Source of the DNA: Devosia sp. MC521
GTDB taxonomy: Bacteria; Pseudomonadota; Alphaproteobacteria; Rhizobiales; Devosiaceae
Length of the DNA: 64,000 bases
Reading direction: 5' to 3'
Assembly (NCBI RefSeq): GCF_014127105.1
Contig: NZ_CP059902.1
Coordinates: 2,575,001-2,639,000 of the forward strand
Numbering within the stretch: position 1 is the first letter of the stretch; each line of letters starts with the position of its first letter. The notes under the pieces were generated by a model. It was given only the letters and a program-made list of their open reading frames with translations. It was not told where the DNA came from and searched no databases. This document shows positions 50,278-56,395 of this stretch, piece by piece. A program made the translations under genes and the position numbers.

Positions 50278-50349
50278 CTTGAAACCACCCCGGTTCGCAC
50301 CTTAACTAGGGGAAGAGGGAGCATTCCGTCTTTTAGGAGCGACATCGCG

Positions 50350-51300
50350 ATGCACGCAAAAGTCATCATCATTGGCTCGGGTCCAGCTGGCTACAGCGCC
50401 GCGATCTATGCTGCACGCGCAATGCTCGAACCGGTCATGATCCAGGGCCTTCAGCCCGGCGGCCAGCTCACCATCACCACCGATGTGGAAAACTATCCCG
50501 GCTTTGCTGATGTCATTCAGGGTCCATGGCTCATGGACCAGATGAAGGCGCAGGCCGAGCACGTCGGCACGCGCATGGTCAACGACATCATCACCGATGT
50601 GAATTTTGACGTGCGCCCCTTCGTCCTCACCGGCGATAGCGGCGACGTCTACACCGCCGATTCCATCATCATCGCCACCGGTGCTCAGGCCAAATGGCTT
50701 GGCCTGCCGTCCGAGCAGAAGTTCCAAGGCTTTGGTGTCTCCGCTTGCGCCACCTGCGATGGCTTCTTCTATCGCGGCAAGGAAGTGCTCGTTGTCGGCG
50801 GCGGCAATACCGCTGTTGAAGAAGCCCTGTTCCTCACCAACTTCGCCGAAAAGGTGATCGTTATTCACCGCCGCGACGAATTCCGCGCCGAACGCATTCT
50901 TCAGGATCGCCTGTTCAAGAACCAGAAGATTGAAGTGCGCTGGAACACCGAAATTGTCGAAGTTGCTGGCTCCGAAATGCCACCTTCGGTCAATGCCGTC
51001 ATGCTGCGCAATCGCGCCACCAACGAAGTTTATGAGCAGAAGATCGACGGCGTTTTCGTCGCCATTGGTCACGCTCCAGCCACCTCCATCTTCTCGGGCA
51101 AGCTCGACATGAAGGCTGGTGGCTATCTGCAAGTTAAGCCAGGCACCACGCAAACCAATGTTCCGGGCGTCTTCGCTGCGGGCGACGTCACCGACGACGT
51201 CTACCGTCAGGCGATCACTGCTGCTGGCATGGGCTGCATGGCCGCGCTCGATGCCGAGCGCTTCCTGGCAGAACACGAATTGGCCGAAGCGGCGGAATGA
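50350..51300 (+). CDS. trxB: Thioredoxin reductase
   Basis: The start ATG 50350 (MHAKVIIIGSGPAGYSAAIY) has TAGGAG upstream. The 316-residue flavoprotein has the FAD-binding GSGPAG, the redox-active CATC in SACATCDGFFY (about residues 135-138), the NADPH-binding GGGNTAVEEAL and the final FAD motif GVFAAGDVTDD. It recycles thioredoxin. The LysR gene downstream is its usual partner in Hyphomicrobiales. Confidence 0.98.
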   Translation: MHAKVIIIGSGPAGYSAAIYAARAMLEPVMIQGLQPGGQLTITTDVENYPGFADVIQGPWLMDQMKAQAEHVGTRMVNDIITDVNFDVRPFVLTGDSGDVYTADSIIIATGAQAKWLGLPSEQKFQGFGVSACATCDGFFYRGKEVLVVGGGNTAVEEALFLTNFAEKVIVIHRRDEFRAERILQDRLFKNQKIEVRWNTEIVEVAGSEMPPSVNAVMLRNRATNEVYEQKIDGVFVAIGHAPATSIFSGKLDMKAGGYLQVKPGTTQTNVPGVFAAGDVTDDVYRQAITAAGMGCMAALDAERFLAEHELAEAAE

Positions 51301-52542: not shown

Positions 52543-53259
52543 ATGGCTCGCATCACCACCATCGCCCTCGATGCTGACGATACCCTCTGGGAGAACGAGC
52601 AGTTTTTCCGCCTCACAGAGGAGCGTTTCACCACGCTTTTACGCGACCACACCGATAGCGCAGATCTCAACGATCGCCTGATCAGCGCCACCATGCGCAA
52701 TTTGGCTTTCTATGGTTTTGGCGCCAAAGGCTTCACCCTCTCGATGATTGAAACGGCCCTCGAGCTCACCGAACACCGCGTTCCCGGCCCCGTCATCGCT
52801 GAAATTTTGGCCGCCGGTCGCGAGCTACTCACCTATCCGGTCGAGACCCTGCCCTATGTTGATGAAGCGCTCCAAGCGCTTGAAAAGAAATATCGTTTGA
52901 TCCTCATCACCAAGGGCGATGTGATCGACCAAGAGCGCAAGCTTGCCGCCTCGGGCCTCGCTGAATATTTTGCGGCTGTGGAAATCGTCCAGGATAAAAC
53001 CACTGCGGTCTACGAGCGCATTTTCGCTCAGCACACCGAAGGCGCGGGCCACACGGTCATGGTCGGCAACTCAATGAAGTCTGATATCTTGCCCGCGCTT
53101 GAGGCCGGAGCCTTCGCCGTCTACGTCCCCCATCGCTTAACATGGGTTTATGAACAGGCTGATGAGCCAATAAATCATCCACGATGGGCAAAAATAGAGC
53201 ATCTCGGTCAGCTCCTGCCCGTCCTCGACACCTTCGCCACCCAGGCATCCCACCCGTAA
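52543..53259 (+). CDS. HAD-superfamily hydrolase
   Basis: The 238-residue protein has the HAD nucleophile motif ALDADDTLW (7-15), motif II in LILITKGD, motif III with a Lys at about 130-150 and motif IV in VMVGNSMKSDILPALEAGA. It belongs to the group of small phosphatases with a helical cap (YjjG/GS1-like). The substrate is unknown. The start is ATG 52543 with GAGGTG upstream. Immediately downstream begins the small-RNA cluster. Confidence 0.9.
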   Translation: MARITTIALDADDTLWENEQFFRLTEERFTTLLRDHTDSADLNDRLISATMRNLAFYGFGAKGFTLSMIETALELTEHRVPGPVIAEILAAGRELLTYPVETLPYVDEALQALEKKYRLILITKGDVIDQERKLAASGLAEYFAAVEIVQDKTTAVYERIFAQHTEGAGHTVMVGNSMKSDILPALEAGAFAVYVPHRLTWVYEQADEPINHPRWAKIEHLGQLLPVLDTFATQASHP

Positions 53260-53347: not shown

Positions 53348-53361
53348 GCATGGCTGACATG
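53348..53361 (+). promoter_or_regulatory. 14-bp box upstream of sRNA A
   Basis: GCATGGCTGACATG is identical to the box before sRNA B and matches 12 of 14 bases before sRNA C. CTATAT at 53396-53401 could be part of a promoter. It may be a promoter or activator element. Confidence 0.5.
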
Positions 53362-53399
53362 CCCATTAACCAGTTCCTCATCTTCGAGGATCACCCTAT

Positions 53400-53525
53400 A
53401 TACCGCGACATCACAGCGGGTGTTTCTCCTCCCTCCCTTGCGCCCGCTGCGTTCCCTCCTTAGTGAGCCGTCAGGCTTACTACTCCTTAGGCTCCGCTCT
53501 CCCCTCGAGCGGGGCCTTTCTTTTG
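53400..53525 (+). ncRNA. sRNA A with CTCCTCCCTCCC loop (cuckoo/CcsR-like)
   Basis: Hairpin 1 (53415-53448) has an 8-bp stem AGCGGGTG / CGCCCGCT and an 18-base loop containing CTCCTCCCTCCC (53426-53437). Hairpin 2 is AGTGAGCC / GGCTTACT (53462-53481, loop GTCA). The terminator AGGCTCCGCTC / GAGCGGGGCCT (53489-53517) is followed by TTCTTTTG. Loops with CCUCCUCCC can pair with Shine-Dalgarno sequences and define the alphaproteobacterial 'cuckoo' and Rhodobacter CcsR RNAs. The 5' end is estimated. Confidence 0.75.
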
Positions 53526-53554
53526 TCTGCAATTCTGTGGACCGATGCATAAAT

Positions 53555-53568
53555 GCATGGCTGACATG
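53555..53568 (+). promoter_or_regulatory. 14-bp box upstream of sRNA B
   Basis: GCATGGCTGACATG, identical to the box at 53348. It lies about 55 bases before the first RNA hairpin. Confidence 0.5.
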
Positions 53569-53599
53569 TGTTTTCCGGGATTGCCTACTAAACCAGTAG

Positions 53600-53814
53600 A
53601 GTACATAAAGGCCTCGTTGCTGAGGCGCGCTCCGATCTCCTCCTCCCTTCGGACCGTGTATCGCAACACTGAGCTGCGGATCGTAACCTCCTCCCTCGAT
53701 CCAATGTTCTGGCAGAGCAGCATACTCCTCCTCCCTTGCTCCTCTGCCTTTCACTTTCGATTTGGCCTCAGGCCCAGTCATCGGCCCCATCTTCGGATGG
53801 GGCCTTTTTTTTCT
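53600..53814 (+). ncRNA. sRNA B with three CCTCCTCCC loops (cuckoo/CcsR-like)
   Basis: After a 5' hairpin GCCTC / GAGGC (53611-53626), three stems present the motif in their loops. TCCGA / TCGGA (53631-53653) carries CTCCTCCTCCC; GGATCG / CGATCC (53678-53702) carries CCTCCTCCC; GGCAGAG-AGCA / TGCT-CTCTGCC (53711-53748) carries CTCCTCCTCCC. A shared single-stranded block CACTTTCGATTTGGC follows. The terminator GGCCCCATC-TTCG-GATGGGGCC (53783-53804) ends in eight T. The start is approximate. Repeated anti-Shine-Dalgarno loops suggest translation-related regulation or sponge-like binding. Confidence 0.85.
53783..53812 (+). terminator. Intrinsic terminator of sRNA B
   Basis: The perfect 9-bp stem GGCCCCATC / GATGGGGCC with a TTCG tetraloop is followed by TTTTTTTT. 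Confidence 0.95.
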
Positions 53815-53860
53815 GCCCACTGCAACCCGGTGAGCCACCCTCCCCACGCACGCAGTTCGA

Positions 53861-53898
53861 CCTCCCTCACCTTGAAGGGGAGGGATTGAGGATGGGGG
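53861..53898. repeat. Palindromic intergenic repeat, type 2 (copy 3)
   Basis: CCTCCCTCACCTTGAAGGGG followed by AGGGATTGAGGATGGGGG. It lies between sRNA B and sRNA C and belongs to the CCCTCCCC-TTGA-GGGGAGGG variant. Confidence 0.75.
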
Positions 53899-54047
53899 GA
53901 CGAAGCGCAGAACCAGCAATCCTCTCACGCCAGCCCGCCGGCCATCTCCCACTGAAACACAAGCCCCACCAGCCACTTGCCACGCTGCCGCGCCGCTTCA
54001 TCCATACAAGCTGCACATTAAATGGACAGTTTGTCGCTGTGCCTAAT

Positions 54048-54061
54048 GCATAGCTGGCATG
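54048..54061 (+). promoter_or_regulatory. 14-bp box upstream of sRNA C
   Basis: GCATAGCTGGCATG matches 12 of 14 bases of the boxes before sRNA A and B. It lies 257 bases before the end of the sRNA C terminator region, the same distance as for sRNA B. Confidence 0.45.
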
Positions 54062-54094
54062 ACGAAGCATGCATTGTTGTGGGGGCCAGAAACG

Positions 54095-54305
54095 CCTAGG
54101 TTGTGTGTGTCGACGGGACGCCGCTCCGTATCCTCCTCCCACGGACCCGCGTTGTCGACACCCGGATTGGAACCGTTTCCTCCTCCCTCGGTTCTGGTCC
54201 ACATGGTCTGACGCATATCCTCCTCCCATGCGCTCAGACCAACACTTTCGATTTGGCTTCGGCCCTATCATCAGGCTCCAACTTCGGTTGGAGCCTCTTT
54301 TTTTG
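54095..54305 (+). ncRNA. sRNA C with three CCTCCTCCC loops (cuckoo/CcsR-like)
   Basis: Three hairpins carry the motif. GTGTCGAC / GTCGACAC (54107-54161) encloses TCCGT / ACGGA with loop ATCCTCCTCCC. GAACCG / CGGTTC (54170-54194) has loop TTTCCTCCTCCCT. GGTCTGA-GCAT / ATGC-TCAGACC (54205-54240) has loop ATCCTCCTCCC. The linker ACACTTTCGATTTGGC is almost the same as in sRNA B. The terminator GGCTCCAAC-TTCG-GTTGGAGCC (54274-54295) is followed by TCTTTTTTTG. The stems differ from B while loops and linker are kept, so this is a diverged tandem copy. The 5' end is approximate. Confidence 0.85.
54274..54304 (+). terminator. Intrinsic terminator of sRNA C
   Basis: The perfect 9-bp stem GGCTCCAAC / GTTGGAGCC with TTCG loop is followed by TCTTTTTTT. 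Confidence 0.93.
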
Positions 54306-54389
54306 CCCGCACAAGACTGCAGCAAGGTGACGCGTAGATTTTGCATGGCAGCATTACGCAATTGGCGCTTTTCTAGGCACTGCCGCCGA

Positions 54390-54497
54390 TTGATAATGTC
54401 CTCAACGCAGCGCTCGTGGTGACGCTGCCCTCCAAGGTCTACGGTCCGCCGTGACCCTTAAGACCCTGCCCCTCCCCTCGGGCAGGGTCTTTTTTTA
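54390..54497 (+). ncRNA. Possible sRNA D
   Basis: Hairpin GGTC-ACGG / CCGT-GACC (54436-54456, one bulge) precedes a strong terminator. A partial box (GCATGGCAGCATTA at 54343, 9 of 14 bases) lies upstream. The terminator loop reads CTCCCCTC, so only a degenerate anti-Shine-Dalgarno is present. The terminator can only serve the plus strand, where no protein gene exists between it and sRNA C. It could be a short fourth RNA or a backup terminator for C. Confidence 0.5.
54461..54496 (+). terminator. Intrinsic terminator ending the sRNA cluster
   Basis: An 11-bp perfect stem AGACCCTGCCC / GGGCAGGGTCT with loop CTCCCCTC is followed by TTTTTT. The minus strand has no T-run. Confidence 0.92.
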
Positions 54498-54502
54498 GGC
54501 AA

Positions 54503-56128
54503 TCAAACGTCGGGCAATTCGCGCAGTGGCGTATCATCGTGAAGCGGCACGGTCTGGCGCTCGATCATGCGATGTACCCTCGGCGGTTCTGCCAACTGGT
54601 GCAGGGCCCGCAAGGCCAGCGTATTTTCCGCATCAGCCTTTGTCCGGCGCATGTTGTGCCGCAAATAATCATCCCAGGTGGGCACGTGGTAGCTTTCCAC
54701 CCACAGATCGGGTTCCTGCAAATCGCGCAGCACCGCCCATTGCCGCGCCCCGTCACGAATGCGGATACGGCGACGATCAGCCATCAGTTCCAAAAACTTA
54801 GGGATGTCGTTCTGCGCGATACGATAGTCGATCATCACGAGGATCGGCCCAGAGCGTGGCCGCAGATCGAGCCGCAAAGCGGGCTCATTAAACGTGTCGA
54901 GCGGGTTGAGGTCGCGCGAGCTAAAGGCCGGCAACGGCAAGCGTAGTCCCACAGCGCCGCAAAACACCAAGACGAGAGCCGCGCACAACAGGGCCAGCTG
55001 CGGCCCGCCAATATCCGCGAACAGGCCCCAAACCCAGCTGCCCAAGGCCATGCCGCCAAATGTAGCGGTCTGGTAGAGCGCCAACGCCCGGCCAACCACC
55101 CAACGCGGGGTCGAGAGCTGCACCGACACATTGAACAGCGAAAGCGCGAGCACCCAGCAAGCCCCAGCCGGGATCAACACAGCATGGCTCAGCCACACCT
55201 CGCGACTGAGCCCTAAGCCAACACAGCACAAAGCGAAAATGGCACAGGCGATCCGCACGATCACCTCATTGCTGAAGCGCTCCCGCACGCGACCATTGAG
55301 GAATGCGCCACCGATAGCGCCGAATCCGAAGCAGCCGAGCAATGTGCCATACACAAAGGCCCCACCACCCACATAGTCATTGGCCACCGATGGCAGCAGC
55401 GCCAGAATGACCACAGCCGCTAGGCCAAAGAGAAAGCCGCGGAACAACACCGTCGTTAAATGCGGCGACAGCGACACATATCTGATGCCCGCATACATGG
55501 CCGAGCCGAATTTTTCGCGCGGCAACTGGCTTTTGACCCGCACCGGCTTCCACCGCCAAAGCGCAAAGATCAGGGCGATATAGGACACCGCATTGAGCGC
55601 AAATGCAGCAGCGGCACCGGCTGTCGCCACAATCAGCCCACCAACCGCAGGGCCAACGCTGCGCATGAGGTTGAAACCCATAGAGTTGAGCGTCACCGCA
55701 CCGGGCAGGTCTTCGCGCGGCACCACATCGCCCATCGAGGCCTGCCAGCTTGGATTAAACAGCGCCGTGCCGCACCCGATGAGGAAGGTGAAGCCGAGCA
55801 GTAGCCAAGGCGTCAACAGGCCAAAAACTGTCAGTATCGCCAGAAGGATAGAGACCACCATCAGACCGATCTGAGCGACCAGCATGACGATACGTCGATC
55901 GAAATTGTCAGCGAGAGCCCCGGCCGCGAGCGAAAACAGCATGATGGGAAGCGTCGTAGATGCCTGCACCAGCGCCACCATATTGTGGGAGCTCGACAGC
56001 GTGGTCATCATCCACCCGGCACCCACCGATTGCACCAATCCTCCCAGATTGGAAAACAGCGTTGCCAGCCACAGCATTCGGAATGTCTCATGCCGAAAGG
56101 GGGCCAACATCGATTTACGCTCAGACAT
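54503..56128 (-). CDS. MFS exporter (MFS_3 type) with C-terminal soluble domain
   Basis: The start is ATG 56128 with GGAG 6 bases upstream. The 541-residue protein has twelve TM helices in residues 1-410 (first: HETFRMLWLATLFSNLGGLV), of the enterobactin-exporter/MFS_3 type. Residues about 425-541 form a soluble domain with ILVMIDYRIAQNDIPKFLEL and LWVESYHVPTWDDYLRHNMR, similar to the tail of other MFS_3 proteins and to antibiotic-monooxygenase-like folds. It probably exports a siderophore, drug or metabolite. Confidence 0.88.
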   Translation of the reverse strand: MSERKSMLAPFRHETFRMLWLATLFSNLGGLVQSVGAGWMMTTLSSSHNMVALVQASTTLPIMLFSLAAGALADNFDRRIVMLVAQIGLMVVSILLAILTVFGLLTPWLLLGFTFLIGCGTALFNPSWQASMGDVVPREDLPGAVTLNSMGFNLMRSVGPAVGGLIVATAGAAAAFALNAVSYIALIFALWRWKPVRVKSQLPREKFGSAMYAGIRYVSLSPHLTTVLFRGFLFGLAAVVILALLPSVANDYVGGGAFVYGTLLGCFGFGAIGGAFLNGRVRERFSNEVIVRIACAIFALCCVGLGLSREVWLSHAVLIPAGACWVLALSLFNVSVQLSTPRWVVGRALALYQTATFGGMALGSWVWGLFADIGGPQLALLCAALVLVFCGAVGLRLPLPAFSSRDLNPLDTFNEPALRLDLRPRSGPILVMIDYRIAQNDIPKFLELMADRRRIRIRDGARQWAVLRDLQEPDLWVESYHVPTWDDYLRHNMRRTKADAENTLALRALHQLAEPPRVHRMIERQTVPLHDDTPLRELPDV

Positions 56129-56395
56129 TACAGCTCCGAAGTATAGCACGGCGCAAAAGTGACGCGCCGCGCTCCCCTACGATAGGCCGAGTTGGTTCAC
56201 GCCGTCCTACCGATTCTCACTCTGGACCCAACGAAACTACAAAGTCTCGAGTTCACACCCGACAGACCAGAATAAGTTCTTGCCCGGCAGTTTTTACCGC
56301 CACCCCGAGTTGCTCCCAATGCGCGTCTGATTTCATTCAAAAATATCCGGCACGCCCATTGCATGGCTTATGGCAGAAGCTCGGGAGACACCCAC

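Follow-up and report, generated by a model that had tools for sequence, protein, structure and literature searches.

The 64-kb window (the whole stretch of DNA analysed here) has a gap of about 1.24 kb in which no gene is convincing, flanked by a HAD-hydrolase gene on one side and a convergent MFS gene on the other. Four terminator-ended, small-RNA-like units, A to D, lie there in tandem on the plus strand. We consider it likely that they form an LsrB-controlled array of four trans-acting small RNAs, each transcribed on its own, that block translation by pairing with Shine-Dalgarno (SD) sequences. Their expression, their control by LsrB and their targets in Devosia are proposed by analogy with S. 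meliloti. A sequence-only reading of the same DNA had placed three small RNAs in a gene-free stretch at 53400-54305; the positions are correct and A, B and C are borne out by a terminator scan and the folds described below, but the array counts four units. Besides unit D, that reading had not noticed the LsrB locus, the AbcR-like plan of A or the four promoters with their equal spacing. All features are collected in Table 1.

The HAD hydrolase had been named as the next gene upstream, which is right (TIGR01549), but the most relevant neighbour is the LysR-type gene two genes upstream, which had been missed. This lsrB gene lies directly behind trxB, and lsrB is described as consistently paired with trxB in Rhizobiales (PMC11975290). 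The closest named LsrB proteins, from D. equisanguinis and from a metagenome-assembled genome labelled Phyllobacteriaceae, are 96% identical. An lsrB ortholog is present in 58/61 genomes of the family (E ≤ 1e-100) and in 172/199 genomes of the order (E ≤ 1e-90). The Rfam ar15 (AbcR) model has 41 matches in 31 order genomes; 23 of these, from 21 genomes, are found on the lsrB strand no more than 1 kb downstream of the gene, and the 21 genomes belong to families other than Devosiaceae. The LsrB protein of the window contains no cysteine. Cysteine is also absent from 39 of 60 LsrB proteins of other families, and in every alignment column fewer than 8 of the 60 have Cys; a conserved cysteine pair, C144/C273, is described for three species. 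The cysteine-free LsrB found here bears on how general thiol sensing by LsrB is.

Table 1 Genes, promoter elements and small-RNA features of the lsrB locus (positions in the window; starts of the small RNAs inferred; z, fold stability)
Feature	Position	Strand	Basis or remark
trxB, thioredoxin-disulfide reductase	50341-51300	+	NCBIfam TIGR01292, 409 bits (cut-off 343)
LysR-type regulator, lsrB/vtlR ortholog, 297 aa	51417-52310	+	name from synteny and literature, not from a family model
HAD-IA family hydrolase	52543-53259	+	NCBIfam TIGR01549, above cut-off
LsrB/VtlR-type box of A, GCATGGCTGACATG	53348-53361	+	fits published GCAT-N3-TG-N3-T
Unit A, -35-like TTCCTC (53374-53379), 17 bp, -10-like TATATA (53397-53402)	53374-53402	+	
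sRNA A: SL1 with loop CUCCUCCC, linker UUCCCUCC, SL2, terminator	53409-53523	+	z -8.1; family alignment; conserved in relatives
aSD1 loop CTCCTCCC of A	53426-53433	+	hairpin loop in MFE fold
aSD2 TTCCCTCC of A, between SL1 and SL2	53452-53459	+	conserved linker; unpaired in the window's MFE fold
Terminator of A, loop TCCCCTC (53500-53506)	53489-53517	+	pattern scan
LsrB/VtlR-type box of B, GCATGGCTGACATG	53555-53568	+	
Unit B, -35-like TTGCCT (53581-53586), 17 bp, -10-like CATAAA (53604-53609)	53581-53609	+	
sRNA B: three aSD hairpins, small SL4, terminator	53616-53812	+	z -7.2; covariation
aSD loop 1 of B	53639-53647	+	
aSD loop 2 of B	53687-53695	+	
aSD loop 3 of B	53727-53735	+	
CACTTTCGATTTGGC of B: single-stranded 5' part, then 5' arm of SL4	53752-53766	+	fold; compensating arms in relatives
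Terminator of B (TTCG loop)	53783-53804	+	pattern scan
LsrB/VtlR-type box of C, GCATAGCTGGCATG	54048-54061	+	
Unit C, -35-like TTGTTG (54074-54079), 17 bp, -10-like TAGGTT (54097-54102)	54074-54102	+	
sRNA C, plan as B	54109-54304	+	z -7.6; ar14 match below cut-off
aSD loop 1 of C	54132-54140	+	
aSD loop 2 of C	54179-54187	+	
aSD loop 3 of C	54219-54227	+	
CACTTTCGATTTGGC of C, structure as in B	54243-54257	+	
Terminator of C (TTCG loop)	54273-54296	+	pattern scan
Degenerate LsrB-type box of D, GCATGGCAGCATTA	54343-54356	+	one change (TG to AG) from GCAT-N3-TG-N3-T; phasing as A-C
Unit D, -35-like TTTTCT (54369-54374), 17 bp, -10-like GATAAT (54392-54397)	54369-54397	+	
sRNA D: SL1 with apical CUCGUGGUGA, CCUCC linker, SL2, terminator	54404-54497	+	z -5.8
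Terminator of D, loop CTCCCCTC (RNA CUCCCCUC)	54460-54491	+	pattern scan, fold
MFS gene, convergent	54503-56149	-	

The four units are preceded by elements in the same order: an LsrB-type box, 12 bp, a -35-like hexamer, 17 bp and a -10-like hexamer. The VtlR/LsrB box has been published as GCAT-N3-TG-N3-T (PMC7486931, PMC8844928); the boxes of A to C match it exactly, that of D with one change. With starts set by assumption 7 nt after the -10 hexamer, the box begins at -61 in all four units. This phasing agrees with that published for the S. meliloti promoter PabcR1, which has its LsrB box at -61 to -49 and a sigma-70 core with N17 spacing (PMC8844928). A simple sigma-70 scan of the window found none of the four promoters, which are visible only when the units are aligned. 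The 14-mer GCATRGCTGRCATG has exactly three copies in the genome, before A, B and C; allowing up to two mismatches gave 156 genome sites, compared with 61 for the reversed control. Two (L172, L176) of ten one-mismatch boxes were inspected by eye and showed neither a small RNA nor a DUF1127 gene.

In the relatives, a box that matches the core in 7 or all of its 8 letters stands before 51/52 A, 67/67 B and 52/52 C units, against 673 of 20,000 background windows; since this core was derived from the same units that it scores, the strict published box is the fairer test, and it was found in 32/52 A, 61/67 B and 28/52 C units, being absent in 20/52 A and 24/52 C units. Combining the strict box with an anti-Shine-Dalgarno (aSD) motif returned 7/199 order genomes, but this pattern matches only 4 of the 7 family genomes sampled and is thus too strict to show the distribution of the array.

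Units B and C contain three exact CCUCCUCCC loops each, all unpaired in hairpins of the MFE folds. One loop in A and three each in B and C had been proposed before, and the MFE folds indeed place all seven in hairpins; the strong intrinsic terminators ascribed to the three RNAs were likewise recovered by a pattern scan (7 sites, 2.2 expected from shuffles). For each of B and C, none of 200 dinucleotide shuffles was as stable as the native sequence (z values in Table 1). The exact 9-mer CCTCCTCCC occurs 23 times on both strands of the 3.78-Mb genome, six of these copies lying in B and C, and the reversed-motif control occurs 18 times. The linker CACTTTCGATTTGGC, previously taken to be conserved throughout, is present in B and C, and GATTTGGC is kept in 38/67 B and 38/52 C units of relatives; A, however, has no such linker, and the 3' half of CACTTTCGATTTGGC is the 5' arm of a hairpin.

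At the gathering score, no Rfam model matched anywhere in the 64-kb window. A covariance search with the cuckoo/CcsR-like models, which the sequence-only reading had suggested, did give matches, all of them below the gathering cut-offs: RF02344 (ar14) scored 34.8 bits with C and 27.7 bits with B (cut-off 58.8), and the CcsR1 model 25.9 bits with B (cut-off 65.3). In 12 loci scanned, array units of two relatives (L070 and L066) pass the ar14 cut-off with 67.8 and 62.2 bits. The proposed kinship with cuckoo RNAs is supported in the form of cuckoo/alpha-r14. The idea that two loops are usual and that three would make a distinct subtype is not borne out by the literature: RFMSmelA075 has three and RFMSmelA099 four CCUCCUCCC hairpins, compared with two in the Rhodobacter form (PMC3927594, section 2.7), and descriptions of alpha-r14 give three loops (PMC7143759).

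In common with alpha-r14/NfeR1 (RF02344; RFMSmelA075, the 'cuckoo' family), B and C have three hairpins whose CCUCCUCCC loops are invariant while the stems vary. The S. meliloti RNA has an LsrB-dependent promoter, and the box of B and C, with its phasing, may serve the same control. B and C differ in the 3' part: the third aSD of the Rfam ar14 model sits in the loop of the terminator, whereas the Devosia form has SL4 after its three aSD hairpins and then a terminator that lacks an aSD, with a UUCG loop in both B and C. Two Pelagibacterium B units (L137, L139) carry CCTCCTCC in the terminator loop, a form between alpha-r14 and the Devosia type, and L136 and L142-L144 have CCTCC in the terminator region. 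A second difference lies in the location, as B and C are located at lsrB, whereas family f23 (probably Rhizobiaceae, judging from its top ar15 and ar14 scores) has no ar14 match near lsrB among the matches listed. In other families, 5 of 74 genomes with ar14 matches have a sub-threshold one 0.1-0.5 kb from lsrB. The sub-threshold match at G000:C1:3727931-3728050 was rejected, as it lacks CCTCCTCCC and covers the terminator only.

Selection on structure was assessed in an alignment of 76 B/C units, namely the two of the window, 44 of the 67 B and 30 of the 52 C units. Near-identical units, Pelagibacterium-type units and units without a detected terminator were left out, as were, by hand, B of L115 and L129 and C of L082, L091, L100, L105, L147 and L157. 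Changes on both sides were seen in 26 of 36 predicted pairs, with 418 such cells compared to 123 ± 13 in shuffles. Pairing was possible in 96.3% of cells versus at most 48.9% with partners slid, a comparison that favours the structure since it was derived from the same alignment. SL4 lies outside the consensus, and its arms change jointly in relatives (GGC-UUCG-GCC, GGAC-UUCG-GUCC, GGAU-UUCG-AUCC). The aSD motif was located wholly in a hairpin loop at 51/51 A, 181/189 B and 144/156 C sites of relatives, after units without a detected terminator (1/52 A, 4/67 B, 0/52 C) had been dropped; in B/C units with flanks shuffled around the fixed motif it was in a loop at 256/1725 sites. Stems that covary around fixed loops agree with the earlier view that selection acts on loops and fold, and its reading of the motif as complementary to the SD sequence, which makes these anti-SD RNAs, is equally supported.

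Unit A is of another type. It has a single loop, CTCCTCCCTCCC (53426-53437), which is not the exact 9-mer CCTCCTCCC, and a second C-rich site. Its plan comprises aSD1 in a 5' hairpin, a conserved GCUGCGUUCCCUCC stretch with the second C-rich site, a variable SL2 and the terminator; AbcR-like units of other families have CAGCUGUUCCCCUCUGG in place of the GCUGCGUUCCCUCC stretch. None of 200 dinucleotide shuffles was as stable as A. The A units of relatives were judged by single folds, their misalignment at SL1/SL2 having spoiled an RNAalifold consensus, and aSD2 was fully unpaired in only 22 of 50 of their MFE structures. The terminator loop TCCCCTC is kept in 33/34 aligned A rows although the stem varies, and it may therefore be a further pairing site.

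This plan resembles that of AbcR1/AbcR2 (alpha-r15, Rfam RF02345), which also adjoin lsrB with an LsrB-type box at a similar distance and have aSD1 CUCCUCCC in a 5' hairpin loop, a C-rich site between SL1 and SL2, SL2 and a terminator. Unlike AbcR, in which aSD2 is UUCCCCUC, A has UUCCCUCC with a different letter order, and its terminator loop also bears UCCCCUC. Rfam ar15 did not match the window's A at E ≤ 10, nor did it match in the seven Devosiaceae genomes sampled. A broader AbcR model, built from 19 lsrB-linked RNAs of other families, was applied to the window and to 36 of 40 loci of the family. Its best match was the A unit of L070 (E 5e-4); next came, in L054, a unit with one motif that follows B (E 0.0016), and then the A units of L064, L065, L066 and L067 (E 0.011-0.031), these A units belonging to basal genera. 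The window's A was unmatched at E ≤ 1, the model's sole match in the window overlapping B (E 0.18). A-type units of relatives also match MmgR/suhB (Rfam RF00519) below threshold, with up to 37.4 of 41 bits; unlike A, this is a two-hairpin model whose first hairpin has no aSD loop. By place, promoter and plan, A is AbcR-like and a candidate member of the family.

Judging from its sequence, D appears to be a further box-bearing unit, with a main loop different from those of A to C and an imperfect box. Its fold was matched in stability by none of 200 shuffles. Within 200 nt 3' of C, 38/50 loci of relatives have a box that agrees with the core in 7 or more of its 8 letters, and in 30/50 this box is followed by TTG and GATA hexamers at the same spacing. 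As a free search of 200 positions would, by our estimate, find a chance box in perhaps a fifth of loci, it is the phasing that carries weight for D. Pelagibacterium loci among these 50 did not show D (best boxes 5-6 of 8).

Related loci in close relatives, whose absence the sequence-only reading had named as one refuting outcome, are frequent, and the array is widespread in Devosiaceae. We examined 80 named lsrB loci, 55 of them from named Devosia, a sample from which the window's own record may be absent. A unit with at least three motifs is present in 67/80 loci, a second such unit in 52 and a single-motif unit before it in 52, one of which (L110) looks wrongly picked. The 13 loci without a multi-motif unit fall into six that stop within 3.5 kb of where lsrB starts and seven with one- or two-motif units only. 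Sixty chosen lsrB loci of other families, read over 4-11 kb on the lsrB strand, contained no cluster of two or more motifs; single motifs stand just downstream of lsrB in part of them. A three-hairpin core model gave 66 matches in 41/61 family genomes, of which 65 are on the lsrB strand, 0.3-4.4 kb downstream of the gene. No match was found in 20/61 family genomes, 16 of which belong to genera g6, g10 and g13; the model is narrow, because a g6 unit (L070) passes the Rfam ar14 cut-off.

The remaining match falls, within the genome of the window itself, in a region that resembles a prophage (ORFs judged by eye), where a two-hairpin CCTCCTCCC RNA (L284:10120-10164; C1:1340119-1340163) with a fold of -48 kcal/mol is hit by the Devosia three-hairpin model at 45.5 bits. 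The short gene preceding it resembles, by eye, what we take to be DUF2312/GapR. IMG/VR holds at least 120 stretches with two CCTCCTCCC motifs 22-46 nt apart. Within viral loci L308-L387 (80 among the matches listed), both motifs fall in hairpin loops at 51/97 places, some of which overlap or repeat, and at 0/97 with shuffled flanks; 4 of 12 viral loci scanned pass the ar14 cut-off, two with equal score. Temperate phages seem to carry aSD-hairpin RNAs, the alternative being that these stretches are host flanks.

For S. meliloti, LsrB is reported to activate AbcR1 and NfeR1, which in turn repress mRNAs through aSD motifs that act at the ribosome-binding site (PMC8844928, PMC10746234). By analogy, LsrB of Devosia would bind the GCAT-N3-TG-N3-T box, which lies about 61-48 nt ahead of every start, and activate a putative sigma-70-type promoter that matches the tested S. 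meliloti abcR1 promoter in sequence. Each RNA would then fold into hairpins, those of A, B and C holding CCUCCUCCC-type loops open for pairing with GGGAGGA-type SD sequences, and translation of many mRNAs would be blocked. By comparison with NfeR1 and AbcR1, the targets are probably mRNAs for nutrient uptake and catabolism. Here A would act as the Devosiaceae AbcR-like RNA, with B and C as alpha-r14/cuckoo-type RNAs living beside it; having copies in tandem may increase the dosage and allow the loops and promoters to diverge.

The genome often has GGGAGGA before ATG (74 places, reversed pattern 14), so that many mRNAs could pair. A set of 39 loci (30 of the 74 places plus loci from a further motif count) yielded 22 genes after removal of ORFs below 60 aa, of the frame antisense to B, of one duplicate entry and of two extra copies of a transposase; the AAAGGAG control comprised 28 places with 19 ORFs of at least 60 aa, 18 of which were sent to Pfam. 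This rough test gave no support for a bias towards transporter targets, as substrate-binding proteins made up 5/22 genes with GGGAGGA before ATG and 4/19 with AAAGGAG; transport proteins in general numbered 8 of the 22 and 7 in the control.

This lack of enrichment for one function, and the commonness of GGGAGGA before ATG, would also suit general translation dampers, whose loops mimic the anti-SD of 16S rRNA and titrate SD sequences unspecifically, or sponge an RNA-binding protein. B and C together present six identical loops, and the loops resemble the motif at the 16S 3' end. The NfeR1 and AbcR RNAs of S. meliloti are, however, described as base-pairing with defined mRNAs, and we regard the damper explanation as unlikely.

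The loop motif, the tandem copies and the 25.9 bits of B with CcsR1 recall CcsR1-4 of Rhodobacter (Rfam RF02791), which would make the locus a plain cuckoo/CcsR array driven by the stress sigma factor RpoH and processed from a precursor with a DUF1127 protein. The Rhodobacter RNAs have two hairpins each, share a single RpoH promoter (PMC10253847) and are processed from an operon with the DUF1127 protein CcaF1. Here, in contrast, B and C have three hairpins, box, promoter-like hexamers and terminator are repeated for every unit, no DUF1127 gene was recognised by eye in the neighbouring ORF list, and the CcsR1 score stays below its cut-off, all of which makes such an array very unlikely. Open frames do overlap the region on both strands, as would be expected if low-complexity C-rich sequence or small ORFs had been mistaken for RNAs. 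Such a repeat or coding artefact is hardly credible given the compensatory stem changes, the terminators in 51/52 A, 63/67 B and 52/52 C units, and motif spacings that differ among relatives (45-48 and 38-41 nt) and so break any single reading frame.

For the LsrB-controlled array that we favour, the novelty lies in both RNA types standing together at lsrB, in the separate aSD-free terminator and in unit D; the three loops are not new, since alpha-r14 already has three. Two predicted small-RNA types that relatives seem to keep apart are joined at one place here. In the open-licence literature we found no paper linking Devosia with LsrB and a small RNA, or with AbcR. A speculative and rather doubtful extension is that AbcR and NfeR1/cuckoo RNAs are one superfamily born from tandem duplication beside lsrB; Devosiaceae would then have kept the original place and promoter, and the multi-loop copies of Rhizobiaceae would have moved, some of them onto temperate phages. 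Work on symbionts and pathogens has treated AbcR and NfeR1 as separate LsrB-dependent RNAs. An array that has both kinds behind lsrB, under promoters of equal spacing, allows a natural test of a shared origin and a divided job, and it provides a free-living model for the LsrB RNA regulon.
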